From Desulfoluna limicola (GTDB lineage: Bacteria; Desulfobacterota; Desulfobacteria; Desulfobacterales; Desulfolunaceae): a stretch of 64,000 nt of DNA. The stretch is taken from NCBI RefSeq assembly GCF_021654575.1, contig NZ_AP024488.1, positions 310,001 to 374,000 on the forward strand, written 5' to 3'. Below, piece after piece: positions 27,480-33,132 of this stretch. Numbering within the stretch: position 1 is the stretch's first letter; every line of letters begins with the position of its first letter. The notes below the pieces were generated by a model. It did not search any database and had not been told where the DNA came from. It saw only the letters and a program-made list of their open reading frames with translations. The position numbers were made by a program, and so were the translations under genes.

Positions 27480-27928
27480 TTGTATGGAGGGGTGTGAATG
27501 GTCTCGGACTTGTTGCTTCCGTTGGGCAGATTCACTTGTGGGTTGGGCTTGTGAAAGTCTTGGCACCGAGTCAGGTTGACCCTGGGGAAATGACTCTCCC
27601 GCCTGACCAACGGCGCCGAAACCTCCTCCCATGCCGAACGATTTTGGCCTCAACCATTGCCCTTTGAGGGGGGCGACGGTGAGGTCATAATCCGGACCAC
27701 GTCAGGTTTATGGTTGAGTGCCTGCACGGATGAGGTTCTGGTATCAATGGGAATTGAGGTATAGGGGGATATGGCTTGTGTCATGCATTTCGATTGATAA
27801 TCGGATTAAATTATAATAGAATTTCATCCACAGTTTAACGGAAATACACCTTTCTTTTAGATATGCGGCGACTCGCCCCAACCTCAAAACGGCAGAATTA
27901 CCCTGCCAACCATTCTATGGAGGATATC
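27480..27928. other. Non-coding gap before superoxide reductase
   Basis: No gene is supported. A longer open frame runs upstream of the superoxide reductase start but has no family support. AT-rich sequence at about 27790-27850 is the likely promoter area. Confidence 0.5.
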
Positions 27929-28303
27929 ATGATCGAACGAAACCAGGTTTATAAGTGCTCATTGTGTGGAAATATTGTTGAAGTGCTTGTGGGAAGTGGA
28001 CCGATTCCCGTTTGTTGCGGTCAGGATATGGGGCACCTTACAGAAAATACCGAAGATGCCGCTGTTGAAAAACATGTCCCTGTGGTTGAGAAAATCGCAG
28101 GCGGCTATCGTGTGGTGGTGGGTGAAGTGGCACACCCCATGCTGGACGCCCATTACATTCAGTGGATCGAAGTGCTCGCAGACGGAAAGGTCTACCGTCA
28201 GTATCTCAACCCCGGTGATGCCCCCGAGGCGACCTTTATGATTGATGCCGATAACGTCACCGCCCGTGAGTATTGCAACCTGCACGGCCTCTGGAAAAAA
28301 TAG
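27929..28303 (+). CDS. dfx: Desulfoferrodoxin (superoxide reductase)
   Basis: A 124-residue 2Fe superoxide reductase that reduces superoxide to hydrogen peroxide without forming oxygen, as in anaerobes. Desulforedoxin-type centre I ligands are C10, C13, C29 and C30. Centre II ligands are H49, H69, H75, C116 and H119, with E47-K48 in the EKHVP loop near the active site. GGAGGA lies 6 bases before ATG 27929. The rubredoxin-like gene and a triheme cytochrome follow on the same strand and may donate electrons. Confidence 0.97.
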
Positions 28304-28427
28304 TCACGTCGTGACGTTTGCCTGGATGACGTGACGTGGGCAAGGCCTTCTTACCAGAATACATCTCAACCCAAAGACCGTTTCACTTTGACCCGTGGGT
28401 AAGAGGGGCAAAGCGAAACGGCAATAC

Positions 28428-28451
28428 ACTTTCGAGGTGGCTGACCTCGAT
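28428..28451 (+). repeat. Degenerate hairpin element facing the rubredoxin-like gene
   Basis: Only the hairpin core TTTCGAGGTGGCTGACCTCGA is kept, 24 bases before the rubredoxin-like start. The usual CCGGAGGC terminus is replaced by sequence that contains GGAGGAAG. Confidence 0.55.
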
Positions 28452-28474
28452 CACCATAATATGGAGGAAGAGAG

Positions 28475-28630
28475 ATGGAAAAGAGCTGGAAATGCACGGA
28501 ATGTGGATACGCCGTTAAAGAGAAGGAACCCCCGGAAGAGTGCCCTGCGTGTAAAGAGAAGTGCTCGTTTGTGGACAACATTGATTATACCCAGAACATT
28601 GGTGACAAACGACCCGACGAGCGGATCTGA
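28475..28630 (+). CDS. Rubredoxin-like iron protein
   Basis: A 51-residue protein starting at ATG 28475 with GGAGGAAGAG upstream. Two cysteine pairs, CTECGY at residues 7-12 and CPACKEKC from residue 23, form a rubredoxin or rubrerythrin-tail-type Fe(Cys)4 site. The protein lacks the usual aromatic core of full rubredoxin. Its place between superoxide reductase and a cytochrome suggests an electron carrier in peroxide or superoxide reduction. The domain is clear, the partner inferred. Confidence 0.85.
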   Translation: MEKSWKCTECGYAVKEKEPPEECPACKEKCSFVDNIDYTQNIGDKRPDERI

Positions 28631-28656
28631 TTCGGGGCGGCCGAAATGAGGAATTC

Positions 28657-28998
28657 ATGATGAGAAAGATTGGGACTGCAGTGGCGTTATTGCTACTCGT
28701 GGTTGGGGTGTTCTTTGCCTTTGCCGGGCAGGGGTCGGAGACAATGCTTCTGCCAGTGGAAGGAAAGTATGGGGCCGTTGACCTTCCCCATTGGGATCAC
28801 CAGGAGAGCCTGGGAGACTGCAACGCCTGCCACGGGCTTTTTCCCCAGGAGGCGGGGGCCATTGACCGACTCAAAACGGAGAAGGCTTTAAAGAAGAAGC
28901 AGGTGATGAACAACTGCAGAGGATGTCATCGCTCCATGACCAAGGCCGGTAAGGCAAGTGGGCCCATCAAGTGCTTTGATTGCCACGCAGCCGGATAA
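28657..28998 (+). CDS. Periplasmic triheme cytochrome c (c7-like)
   Basis: A 113-residue secreted cytochrome. A signal peptide (KIGTAVALLLLVVGVFFAFA) is followed by three CxxCH motifs: C55-H59, C87-H91 and C106-H110. H45 and H48 (HWDH) are probable distal ligands. The spacing resembles the class III c3/c7 group of sulfate and metal reducers. Two adjacent ATGs start it, with GAGGAA upstream. It forms a probable operon with the superoxide reductase and rubredoxin-like genes. A strong terminator follows. Confidence 0.92.
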   Translation: MMRKIGTAVALLLLVVGVFFAFAGQGSETMLLPVEGKYGAVDLPHWDHQESLGDCNACHGLFPQEAGAIDRLKTEKALKKKQVMNNCRGCHRSMTKAGKASGPIKCFDCHAAG

Positions 28999-29313: not shown

Positions 29314-30315
29314 ATGATGGCGTTTGACAGCCTGCATGCAGGAGGGGTGGCACTGCCGGTGTCGCCCTGGATTGTGAAAGGTCTTCACATGGTGACGCTT
29401 ACCACCCATGTGGCGGTGATGAACATTCTTTTGGGCACTGCCCTGCTCTATGCGGTGGGGCTTTATGTGGGTGGGGATAAGGGTGCGACGGCTCCAAAGC
29501 TGCCCATCTGGATGGCCTTTACCATTAACACCGGGGTTGCGCCGCTGCTCTTTTGCCAGGCCCTTCTGGCGCACTACATTTACACCAGCTCCATCCTCAT
29601 CGCCGGGTGGTGGCTTGGCGCCGTCTTCATTCTCATAGCGGCTTATTATCTTTCGTACCTTGCCACCTCTGCAGAGGCCGTTGTCAGTACCAGGCGCCTG
29701 GCAGCCACAGCCATCGCTCTTCTTCTGCTTTTTGTCTCCTTTATTTTTGTCTGCAATATCGATCTCATGACACACCCGGTCCGATGGAACCGGTATTTTG
29801 ACTCTCCCCACGGTTGGCTTCTCTTTACCGGAGGGGCGGATACCCTGCTTCGATGGGCCCATGTGGTTCTGGCGGCACTTTTTCATGCCCTTCTTCTGGG
29901 AAGAATCCTTGGTAAGGCCGATTGGCTGGCCGGGAAAAAGGGGCGCTGGCTGGGGGGGAGTTTTCTGCTTTTTCTTTTTGCCACCGGTATCGCACACCAC
30001 GGGCTTTTGCCTGCAACGGTAAAACACATGGCTGGGGATGGCATCCTTGACCTGACCTTGCTCATCATCTCCGCTGGGGTGCTTGCTCTCGTGTATGTCA
30101 GCGGGCGTTTAAAACTCGCCGGTTTATGGGCTTGCAGTAATCTCACTCTGATGATCCTTTTCAGGGAGGACATCCGGAGCGGGTTTCTGGCACCGGTTAC
30201 CAACACGGGCCCCGCCGACTACGGATCGTTTACCATGTTTGTTCTCTCTCTTGTTCTGGGAGGTGCTGCCCTTGGTTACATGGTTTCCCTTCTCCGAAAA
30301 GGAGGTGGCGCATGA
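29314..30315 (+). CDS. Polytopic membrane subunit of cytochrome bd-like complex
   Basis: A 333-residue protein with about nine membrane helices and no heme c motif. Its first helices contain LHMVTLTTHVAVMNILLG, where histidines stand like the axial-ligand histidine in the first helix of CydA. A second feature is LFREDIRSGFLAPVTNTGP near the C-terminus. GAGGG precedes two adjacent ATGs. It overlaps the next gene by 4 bases (ATGA), so the two products probably form one complex. I infer a second membrane subunit related to the bd oxidase superfamily, with moderate confidence. A NapC or Nrf-type anchor is less likely because no CxxCH is present. Confidence 0.65.
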   Translation: MMAFDSLHAGGVALPVSPWIVKGLHMVTLTTHVAVMNILLGTALLYAVGLYVGGDKGATAPKLPIWMAFTINTGVAPLLFCQALLAHYIYTSSILIAGWWLGAVFILIAAYYLSYLATSAEAVVSTRRLAATAIALLLLFVSFIFVCNIDLMTHPVRWNRYFDSPHGWLLFTGGADTLLRWAHVVLAALFHALLLGRILGKADWLAGKKGRWLGGSFLLFLFATGIAHHGLLPATVKHMAGDGILDLTLLIISAGVLALVYVSGRLKLAGLWACSNLTLMILFREDIRSGFLAPVTNTGPADYGSFTMFVLSLVLGGAALGYMVSLLRKGGGA

Positions 30316-32705
30316 CTTACCCTGTACTGGATTTTTTTCAAGGGGGGGGCGGACTCCTCATCGCAGTCATCGCCGTGGTGCATGTCTATGTGGCCCATTT
30401 TGCGGTTGGGGGAGGGCTCTTTCTGGTCCTTACGGAAGCAAGGGCCCGGAAAAAGAAAAGCGAGGCAATGCTTCGTTATGCAAAGCAAAGCACCCTGTTT
30501 TTTCTCCTTTTGACCATGGTCTTCGGGGGGCTCACCGGGGTGGGGATCTGGTTTACCATCGGCATCGTCAGCCCCGAGGCCACAGCAAAACTGATTGAAA
30601 CCTTTCTGTTTGCCTGGGCGGCGGAATGGGTTTTCTTCTCTGTGGAGATCACGGCCCTTCTCGTTTACTGGTACCGGTTTGATACCATGCGCCCTGCCGA
30701 TCACATCCGGGTGGGGTGGATCTATTTTGCCTCGGCCTGGCTCTCGCTTTTCATCATCAACGGTGTGATCAGTTTTATGCTGACCCCCGGTTCGTGGCTT
30801 GAAACCGGACAATTTTACGACGCCTTCTTTAATCCGGGCTTCTGGCCGTCCGTGGTGTTCCGAACGGCTATTGCCATTTGGGCCGCAGGGCTCTTTGGGT
30901 TTGTAACCGTCGCTTTCTCAAAGGAGGCGGATGTGAGGGAAGGCATGCGGCGGTTCTATACGCTCTGGGTGGTTGGCATGGGGCTGGCTGTTCTTGCGGT
31001 GGGGAGGGTCTATCTTGTATCGGTGCCGGAGTTTCATCTGGCCGGACACTATGAATCTGCGGCCACAGTCTCTCAGCTTGTCTCCGGTTTTACCGGGGTT
31101 ACCCTGGGAATCATGGTGCTGGCCACGTTCATGGGGTTTTTGAGATCTCAAAAGGCGGGGATAGTGTTGGCTGTGGTTGTGCTGGCAGCGGGACTCCTTC
31201 ACATGGGGCTTTTTGAAATGGTGAGGGAGCATGCCCGAAAACCGTGGATTATCACCGGGGTGCTTTACGCCAACAGTATTTCCTCTGACGAGGCTGATGA
31301 ATTGAACAGCCAGGGGCTTCGCAGCCGCTCTCCCTGGCTGGCGGATGAGCATCTCACCGGCCGAAACCTGTTCAAGACGCAGTGCCTCTCCTGTCATAGT
31401 GTAGACGGTCCCATCAACGACATCATGCCCCTCACCGCCCGATACACCCCTGAAGGGCTTGAGCAGGCCCTGGCAGGTCAGGGGCAGCTTCATGGTTATA
31501 TGCCGCCTTTCTTCGGAGACGACATCGAACGGCGCATGTTATCCCAGTGGCTTACCGATGGGCTTCATGGAAAAAAAACGGTTGAGGTCGATGAAATGCC
31601 CGGGGCAACGATTGAGTCCGTTCAGACCAGAAAAAAACCGGTTCTTCTGGCGTGGCGAAACACCATCGGCAGTGCGAGGCTTCACAGCCCGCTCTTTACT
31701 GCCGGAGGCCCGGTGACGCAACGTATTCAAGCTTCATTGGTGCGAAAGGGCGAGTTTCCGGAAATCGTGTTGGATGGCTCGGAGGTACACGTGACATCAT
31801 CCGGAAAAACATTCCCCATGACCTTTGATGATGACAAGGGGGGGTGGGCAATAGAGGCCGCTCGGGGTACCCTTGACGACCGGTGCGTCGTGACGGGAAC
31901 CGAAGGGGGCGAGGTGCTTAATCAGGTTGTCCTTCCACCTGAGCCCCAAGCCACCCAGGGGTGTTTTAACTGCCATGGCGGGCTACCTGTTTCATCGGGC
32001 ATCGGTGAAACCACCGCCAGGAATATCCTTGCCTCCCACGATAAGAACAGCGGTACCACCCTTGCCGAGAAGGCCTCCGGGGGGGATACCGTTATATGTA
32101 CCCAGTGCCATACCGGAAACCGGCCGTCGCCATCCGCCGCCCTCCACGGCTGGCACAACATCTATATGGCCGATAAAGATGAAACATCCTGTCGCCTCTG
32201 CCACAGCAGCGGCCCAGCTCATGCCCCGGAGTTCTTCTCGGGGCGGCACAGGAAAAACCTGAACTGCACCGATTGCCATGGCACAATGACGCTCCATGCG
32301 GCCAGGCTCTTGAAGCCCTTCACCGTTCCGGAAGTGACACGCCTGAAAAAGCCCCTTGGAAAAAACGCGGACACCGCCGTCGCCCGGGAACCCTACACCC
32401 AGCTTCCCAACTGTCTCTCTTGTCACCAAGACTTTCAGCCGTCGACGGCGGGAAGCTCTGCCACCATGACAGTGACCCCCGAGGAACGGTTCAGCGCCAT
32501 GAAAGACGACATGGAGGCCTTGGCCTGTACGGCCTGCCATGGCAGAGCCCATGAATTGGTTCCGGCAACCCGCATAGGCATCAATGATCTGAGCCAGGCC
32601 TATATGGGGCAGCCAGGTGTCATGGGCTCCGTGACATGCACCGCCTGTCACGACGAAGAAAAAGAAGACGAAGGCCACCATATGGGCATGCTGAAAAATC
32701 GGTAA
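30312..32705 (+). CDS. CydA-like membrane protein fused to octaheme cytochrome c
   Basis: A 797-residue protein. Residues 1-315 hold about eight or nine helices related to cytochrome bd subunit I: HVYVAHFAVGGGLFL (helix 1 histidines), FAWAAEWVFFSVEITALLVYWYRFD (acidic residues like CydA E99/E107), and EHARKPWIITGVLYAN, which aligns with the GRQPW-type motif. The rest is periplasmic with eight CxxCH motifs: C358, C551, C596, C627, C652, C701, C739 and C776 (first cysteines). C358 lies in a mono-heme cytochrome c domain; the last seven are clustered multiheme type. A beta-rich stretch of about 110 residues (440-545) separates them. Members of the bd superfamily with c-type domains are known; this octaheme arrangement is unusual. 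It could oxidise quinol or cytochrome c and reduce oxygen, nitric oxide or another acceptor; none is proven. Confidence 0.8.
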   Translation: MTYPVLDFFQGGGGLLIAVIAVVHVYVAHFAVGGGLFLVLTEARARKKKSEAMLRYAKQSTLFFLLLTMVFGGLTGVGIWFTIGIVSPEATAKLIETFLFAWAAEWVFFSVEITALLVYWYRFDTMRPADHIRVGWIYFASAWLSLFIINGVISFMLTPGSWLETGQFYDAFFNPGFWPSVVFRTAIAIWAAGLFGFVTVAFSKEADVREGMRRFYTLWVVGMGLAVLAVGRVYLVSVPEFHLAGHYESAATVSQLVSGFTGVTLGIMVLATFMGFLRSQKAGIVLAVVVLAAGLLHMGLFEMVREHARKPWIITGVLYANSISSDEADELNSQGLRSRSPWLADEHLTGRNLFKTQCLSCHSVDGPINDIMPLTARYTPEGLEQALAGQGQLHGYMPPFFGDDIERRMLSQWLTDGLHGKKTVEVDEMPGATIESVQTRKKPVLLAWRNTIGSARLHSPLFTAGGPVTQRIQASLVRKGEFPEIVLDGSEVHVTSSGKTFPMTFDDDKGGWAIEAARGTLDDRCVVTGTEGGEVLNQVVLPPEPQATQGCFNCHGGLPVSSGIGETTARNILASHDKNSGTTLAEKASGGDTVICTQCHTGNRPSPSAALHGWHNIYMADKDETSCRLCHSSGPAHAPEFFSGRHRKNLNCTDCHGTMTLHAARLLKPFTVPEVTRLKKPLGKNADTAVAREPYTQLPNCLSCHQDFQPSTAGSSATMTVTPEERFSAMKDDMEALACTACHGRAHELVPATRIGINDLSQAYMGQPGVMGSVTCTACHDEEKEDEGHHMGMLKNR

Positions 32706-32720: not shown

Positions 32721-32802
32721 GCCTCCGGCGGCAAGGTGAGCCACCTTGAGAGCTGGTTACGGATGTAAGTTGTCCCTCGTTCCTCGGGTCAAATTACATC
32801 CG
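32721..32802 (-). repeat. GCCTCC-terminated hairpin element, copy 10 (facing bd-like operon stop)
   Basis: GCCTCCGGCGG, then CAAGGTG-N3-CACCTTG, then GGATGTAA ... TTACATCC arms around CCCTCGTTCCTCGGG. The outer arms differ from other copies (GGATGTAA in place of GCGAATG) but still pair with each other. Confidence 0.85.
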
Positions 32803-33132
32803 TTTTTTATGGTTTGTGCGGGTACTGGGGAGCTCTCTGTAAATATATGAATAAACAGCATGATTGAATCCATTGGGTGGTTGTGTCGTGCCGGTAACCC
32901 CCGAATGTGTGACGCACGCGAAGGAACGTCACACATCGTGCGAATGCGGGCGCGAGGGACGCTGAAAGGTGAGGCCCTTCTCGCATTCGCCATAGGGTTT
33001 CGAGGTGCCCCACCTCGCCGCCGGAGGCTGCAACCTTGAAAAAAAGATGTAACGTTTTTTTGAAAAATGGCTCTCAAAGGGGAGTTGTGAATAAATTATA
33101 CTTACATTGAATTGATAATCAGGAGACCGATA
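32803..33132. other. Non-coding gap before CoA-disulfide reductase
   Basis: No gene is seen. It is largely made up of hairpin element copy 11 and AT-rich sequence from 33045 on, where the promoter of the next gene is expected. Confidence 0.5.
32902..33028 (+). repeat. GCCTCC-terminated hairpin element, copy 11
   Basis: Holds CGAATGCGGGCGCGAGGGACGC..., GCATTCGC, the hairpin CGAGGTG-N3-CACCTCG and the terminus CCGCCGGAGGC. It ends 105 bases before the CoA-disulfide reductase start. The distal part (GAATGTGTGACGC ... GTCACACATCG) is a further inverted repeat. Confidence 0.82.

Follow-up and report, generated by a model that had tools for sequence, protein, structure and literature searches.

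Sulfate reducers are strict anaerobes, yet they consume oxygen, and the locus described here raises the question of whether it encodes a membrane enzyme for doing so. The locus lies in a stretch of 64,000 nucleotides from Desulfoluna limicola (NCBI RefSeq assembly GCF_021654575.1, contig NZ_AP024488.1, positions 310,001 to 374,000 of the forward strand), hereafter the window, in a genome of 6.26 Mb on a single contig. It comprises two genes: A, whose product joins a membrane domain resembling CydA of cytochrome bd to an octaheme cytochrome c, and B, whose product is a second membrane protein. The initial annotation of this DNA had considered a quinol- or cytochrome-linked oxidase, a nitric oxide (NO) reductase and a module that sends electrons out of the membrane. 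Our analysis leans towards the prediction that A and B constitute a two-subunit, cytochrome-c-fed O2 reductase of the bd superfamily that serves in oxygen defence. The genes and the parts of A are as follows:

29314..30315, + strand: gene B, a diverged CydA paralogue (CydA'-like) of 333 residues with nine predicted helices (open reading frame (ORF), profile comparison and structure match)
30312..32705, + strand: gene A, a CydA-like membrane protein plus octaheme cytochrome c, 797 residues (ORF; PF01654, E 2e-9; Cytochrome_C7, E 9.8e-13)
30312..31346, + strand: CydA-like membrane domain of A, residues 1-345, eight helices (sequence and profile alignments, model)
31353..31556, + strand: class-I cytochrome c domain of A, carrying heme 1, C358-x-x-C-H362 (PF13442, E 5e-4, under its cut-off)
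31569..31946, + strand: linker separating heme 1 from hemes 2-8 of A, about residues 420-545, the putatively beta-rich insert of the initial annotation (alignment alone)
31962..32681, + strand: heptaheme c-type part of A, hemes 2-8, seven CxxCH motifs (Cytochrome_C7, Cytochrom_c3_2 and Mtrc-MtrF_II-IV matches)

The start of A overlaps the stop of B by 4 bases (ATGA).

The membrane domain of A had been described as CydA-like, and both profile and structural comparisons bear this out. Residues 17-206 matched PF01654 (Cyt_bd_oxida_I) at 37.0 bits against a cut-off of 26.2 (E 2e-9). The structural models of the two proteins, built from four Desulfoluna sequences, had low mean confidence (predicted local distance difference test (pLDDT) values of 59 and 55). 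Compared with solved CydA chains, the model of the membrane domain of A gave Z scores of 24.6-27.5 across 295-313 residues; the top match, the CydA chain 5doq_A (Z 27.5, root-mean-square deviation 3.2, 313 residues aligned), was far above unrelated entries. Thus, the outcome that had been named as grounds for giving up the assignment, a model unrelated to CydA, was not what we obtained. A heme-copper NO reductase (cNOR or qNOR) was rejected as well: no heme-copper family occurred in the Pfam or NCBIfam results, and the best, distinct fold was that of CydA.

The pair was scanned for in the window's phylum and in one plasmid collection, and the residues of the active site were evaluated in the homologues. 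Positions of E. coli CydA were mapped to the canonical CydA of the D. limicola genome and thence to A by alignment and structure, up to model residue 318. On this mapping, H19, E99, E107 and E445 of E. coli correspond to H24, E105, E112 and E306 of A, all of which were invariant in 53/53 homologues; the equivalence of E105 and E99 requires a one-residue gap. The GRQPW-like motif ('ARKPW') was similarly preserved, with R309 and P311 invariant in the same 53 homologues, and H29 was kept in 51 of them. The helix-1 histidines, the glutamate pair and the 'ARKPW' motif had all been picked out in the initial annotation. As judged from these alignments, A retains the residues of the bd di-heme site.

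The quinol site fared differently. In A, the position of the heme b558 ligand H186 is occupied by R184 (53/53 homologues), and no conserved Met was found in the seventh transmembrane helix (TM7) of the A homologues (n = 53), so that M393 has no equivalent. The loop between TM6 and TM7 of the model (helices 206-243 and 250-276) spans approximately 7 residues, leaving no Q-loop. Because the Q-loop and the ligands of heme b558 are lost, quinol oxidation by A is unlikely and a link to cytochromes is favored. Checking the heme ligands and the quinol site against a model, as had been suggested, therefore gave a divided answer: the di-heme site stood, while the b558 ligands and the Q-loop were gone, and of the two oxidase types first considered the cytochrome-linked one is preferred. 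Canonical CydA has nine transmembrane helices. The model of A contained eight, with helix 9 absent, and from the known topology of CydA this loss would place the C-terminus of A in the periplasm, where c-type hemes are attached.

The partner protein was expected to have about nine helices and no heme motif; indeed, the model of B contained nine helices, and B has no CxxCH. No Pfam, NCBIfam or PHROGs family was found for B, and a sequence search of the PDB with B gave no match. It proved homologous to A itself: a profile comparison of the two gave Prob 96.4 and E 1.4e-9 over 275 columns. Against a canonical CydA profile, the result was Prob 2.5, over a short stretch that paired H183 of B with H186. 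A CydB-type subunit was considered and rejected, the hhalign comparison with a CydB profile giving Prob 1.6. The best structural matches of the B model were all CydA chains (Z 17.1-18.6), with ActF of alternative complex III just below (Z 16-17), and the TM6-TM7 loop of this model is also short. On these comparisons, B is a diverged CydA paralogue that stands in the place of CydB. H32, H183 and M280 of B were invariant in 54/54 homologues of the phylum, and B may carry a b-type heme.

We next consider the cytochrome part of A. As first described, the CxxCH motifs of A number exactly eight and fall into a 1+7 pattern, one at C358/C361/H362 and the other seven spanning C551 to H780. All eight were invariant in 34/34 octaheme homologues. 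Apart from these motifs, the His and Met residues conserved in at least 90% of the 34 octaheme members were M397 and exactly seven His (H576, H612, H615, H646, H747, H789 and H790, all in the heptaheme part), M397 and each of the seven being present in 34/34. M397 is the likely distal ligand of heme 1, and the pattern agrees with seven bis-His hemes plus a single His/Met heme, the latter in a class-I domain beside the membrane. The C-terminal part of A matched c7-, c3- and MtrC-type cytochromes in Pfam; a profile search of the PDB with the octaheme part returned cytochrome c3 matches alone, all weak. Since each c-type heme has one conserved candidate for its distal position (seven His and one Met), the octaheme part is best read as a wire with no open catalytic heme.

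This bears on the proposal that the octaheme part is itself the catalyst, of the nitrite, hydroxylamine or tetrathionate reductase type, with the CydA-like part a mere anchor. Octaheme reductases are known, and weak matches to NrfB and NrfH models were seen. The conserved distal-ligand candidate for every heme in 34/34 octaheme members largely refutes the proposal, and the membrane-site residues are also retained in members that carry a single c-heme; we regard it as highly improbable.

A second alternative accepts the wire and denies the chemistry: A and B would connect the membrane with cytochromes of the periplasm or the cell exterior, as an electron outlet or inlet, and reduce no small molecule. 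The resemblance of the octaheme part to c7, c3 and MtrC-type domains is consistent with such a conduit, as are the apparent saturation of all c-hemes and the b558-like His kept in B. However, A lacks the quinol loop and the b558 site needed to draw on the quinone pool, the corresponding loop of B is short, and the invariant catalytic residues of the di-heme site would be superfluous in a pure conduit. With those residues invariant and no quinol site seen, the outward electron module of the initial annotation becomes one of the less likely readings, and we consider it quite improbable.

For the cytochrome-fed O2 reductase, we infer that A and B form a complex in which electrons are supplied not by quinol but by c-type cytochromes of the periplasm, such as the triheme c7 encoded next to the pair. 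The seven bis-His hemes would carry them to heme 1, the His/Met heme at the membrane face, from which they would reach the high-spin di-heme site held by A, where O2 would be reduced to water; B, replacing CydB, may hold a further b-type heme. In sulfate reducers, such an enzyme would act in oxygen defence alongside superoxide reductase, flavodiiron protein and the canonical bd oxidase. We advance more tentatively a fuller version, in which A and B are a new type of terminal oxygen reductase, a CydA/CydA' heterodimer that receives electrons from periplasmic cytochromes alone; the octaheme wire would also store electrons, and the pair would be the cytochrome-linked O2 reductase so far missing from the membranes of strictly anaerobic sulfate reducers.

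The choice of substrate depends largely on the gene neighborhood. Genes for superoxide reductase and a triheme cytochrome had been noted beside the pair, and both lie upstream of it. The features flanking the pair are as follows:

28657..28998, + strand: triheme c7-type periplasmic cytochrome, candidate electron donor (upstream of B; kept in Desulfoluna and in the oxygen-defence islands of relatives)
27863..28303, + strand: desulfoferrodoxin (superoxide reductase), TIGR00320 at 189.9 bits against a cut-off of 146.9 (neighbor kept in relatives of Desulfoluna)
32760..32808, + strand: intrinsic-terminator-like hairpin 3' of A, with a 9-pair stem, CGGATGTAA/TTACATCCG, followed by TTTTTT

Desulfoluna genomes keep these genes in the order desulfoferrodoxin, triheme c7, B, A. 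An 84-residue GTG ORF in the gap between desulfoferrodoxin and c7 (28395-28649) was set aside as spurious and probably not a gene: it has no family match and a basic composition, and no relative of it was detected at the homologous loci of other Desulfoluna genomes. A terminator scan recovered the hairpin 3' of A in part, its overall counts being modestly above those of shuffled sequences. A promoter search was at chance level (3 found, 2.5 expected).

Within the window's order, 16 of 27 loci had at least one of desulfoferrodoxin, flavodiiron protein and canonical cydA within the fetched flanks; by a rough estimate, only a few per cent would be expected by chance for few-copy genes in a 5 Mb genome. 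B or B-A occurred in an island with a flavodiiron protein at L039, L042, L043, L045, L046, L050, L051, L052 and L057, with desulfoferrodoxin, canonical cydA, c7, an FMN-reductase/phosphatase fusion and a HEAT-repeat protein as varying extras. Six of these loci (L042, L045, L046, L050, L051 and L057) formed recurrent islands of desulfoferrodoxin, flavodiiron protein, HEAT-repeat protein, FMN-reductase/phosphatase fusion and B with or without A, often with canonical cydA and c7 as well. We know of no role for the HEAT-repeat protein or the FMN-reductase/phosphatase fusion in such islands.

The same architecture and electron path could also serve another substrate, making the pair a bd-type reductase of NO or of peroxide. 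Flavodiiron proteins, which are neighbors in the relatives, reduce either O2 or NO, and one mono-heme A locus adjoins a gene for a MauG-type cytochrome c peroxidase. W441 of CydA is replaced in A by an invariant Glu (E302), so that the site is altered from that of canonical bd. On the other side, desulfoferrodoxin and the canonical bd oxidase in the islands indicate O2 and superoxide, all four residues of the bd di-heme site are kept, and no denitrification genes occurred among the neighbors examined. The setting of superoxide reductase, flavodiiron protein and canonical bd oxidase therefore favors oxygen defence over NO. The NO reductase of the initial annotation thus keeps its bd-type site but loses on gene context, and we consider an NO or peroxide reductase unlikely, although the least so of the alternatives weighed here.

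Several points count against an O2 reductase for oxygen defence. Beyond the substitution at E302, the models have low confidence, although the fold matches of A are still well above unrelated entries. H183 and M280 were not kept in two of the three distant plasmid-encoded B proteins, as judged from a rough alignment. The genome already encodes a canonical CydA, and the oxygen-related context was absent at loci outside the window's order, although one mono-heme locus there has the MauG-type peroxidase gene.

The pair is widespread. B was found in 27 of 96 genomes in a search of the relatives with B, and the membrane-domain profile of A found relatives in 78 of 395 genomes across the phylum. Besides other genomes of the Desulfoluna type, many more families of the order had the B-A pair with eight CxxCH motifs. 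A takes several forms: octaheme (approximately 790-910 residues), with two or three c-hemes (approximately 520-650 residues) and with one c-heme (approximately 440-460 residues); a further form has one c-heme in A and two in B. The last is represented by L150-L153 and L227, in which two class-I cytochrome c domains are fused to B; in L150, a MauG/diheme-peroxidase gene is adjacent. An unrooted tree built from 53 A domains grouped the octaheme forms with most of the two- or three-heme forms in one clade (99/97), separate from the main mono-heme clades, which were well supported. A split version was seen in L139:6010-10954, where a three-heme A and B are followed by a separate octaheme protein (PF11783 plus c7-type domains), an arrangement in which the octaheme wire looks like a subunit in its own right.

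Of the 59 loci with A, 46 had B as its immediate neighbor and on the same strand; B was upstream of A in octaheme loci and downstream in nearly all others. For most A loci with no adjacent B, the genome encodes B elsewhere, as in the single-contig genome G017. The converse was seen for L046, L049, L050, L057 and others, where B lies inside an oxygen-defence island and A elsewhere in the genome (that of L057 being a single contig); B and A are thus separable. Mono-heme A and B pairs were also found on plasmids of Thermus thermophilus, Agrobacterium and Methylosinus (L235, L236 and L237), annotated as 'cytochrome c' and mostly 'hypothetical protein'. The site residues of A are kept in these members, with one Glu changed to Asp. 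Just downstream of the two alphaproteobacterial plasmid pairs are genes for an ATP-binding protein (possibly a histidine kinase) and a response regulator, which suggests signal-controlled expression. Chance is ruled out by the conservation, in many genera, of the gene pair, the ligands and the number of hemes.

A more distant relative leads to the cable bacteria, whose CydAh has been described as a homologue of CydA that bears a cytochrome c domain in the periplasm and lacks CydB, and proposed as an O2 reductase (PMC13047784, PMC10030654). The published cable-bacterium 16S primer ELF645wF (PMC7348212) had its site in four genomes, all of genus g326 in family f83, and the match was exact in three. 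The A profile found a distant member in 8/8 genomes of this genus and in 5/5 of a neighboring genus (g325, possibly Electronema), usually with one c-heme (L213-L225); this protein is probably the CydAh of PMC13047784. The CydAh candidates match PF01654 more strongly than A does (E 2.5e-21) and keep an H186-like His and the equivalents of H19 and E445. The idea that CydAh has an overlooked B partner was dropped, as no B was found nearby or elsewhere in the 13 genomes of the two genera. CydAh shares with A its homology to CydA, the cytochrome c domain on the periplasmic side and the lack of CydB; it differs in usually carrying a single c-heme, in lacking both a B partner and an equivalent of E112 (E. 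coli E107), and in keeping a b558-like His. CydAh is thus a separate branch, as indicated by the absence of a B partner and the different ligand set.

Desulfovibrio has been reported to reduce O2 in the periplasm (cited in PMC13047784), and in many lineages such O2 reduction lacks a clear membrane enzyme. A and B are a widespread and specific candidate: the gene set is defined, the residues can be tested and the oxygen-defence setting is conserved. They would supply a characterized anchor for an uncharacterized, quinol-free branch of the bd superfamily and, with CydAh as a distant branch of the group, bear on how cable bacteria pass electrons to oxygen. Because neither Pfam nor NCBIfam gives a match to B, the two genes appear to annotators as an 'orphan CydA' or 'cytochrome c' beside a 'hypothetical protein', and what is probably a two-subunit enzyme is missed.

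Finally, we compared the pair with known systems. In contrast to the octaheme nitrite, hydroxylamine and tetrathionate reductases, the octaheme part of A has no open axial position. The NrfD/ActF subunits of alternative complex III and polysulfide reductase were the second-best fold matches (Z 15.9-17.7 for A and 13.5-16.8 for B), but A matches CydA clearly better and keeps the bd-site residues. With CydAB of the qOR family, A shares the CydA fold, the equivalents of H19, E99, E107 and E445, and the GRQPW-like motif; it differs in lacking the Q-loop, H186/M393 and helix 9 and in the addition of eight c-type hemes, and its partner is a CydA paralogue rather than CydB. With the b558 ligands, the Q-loop and a CydB partner all absent from the encoded proteins, the pair is not canonical CydAB.

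The closest likeness is to OR-C and OR-N of the bd superfamily, families of Murali, Gennis and Hemp (2021) that PMC10839748, PMC13189123 and PMC12342949 describe as having a CydA-like core without a quinol site, with another donor presumed; a CydAA'-type pairing of two superfamily members is proposed there for OR-N. No description of an octaheme fusion was found in the literature searched, which lacked the founding OR-C/OR-N paper; the fusion would be a new variant within the bd superfamily, its novelty being unproven to that extent. A resembles OR-C and OR-N in having a CydA core without a quinol site together with c-type hemes, a match by features rather than by tree or hidden Markov models. 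Similarly, A and B resemble the CydAA'-type heterodimer in being two paralogous CydA-like subunits encoded together, a likeness known here at the level of the genes. The pair probably belongs within or beside the uncharacterized OR-C type.

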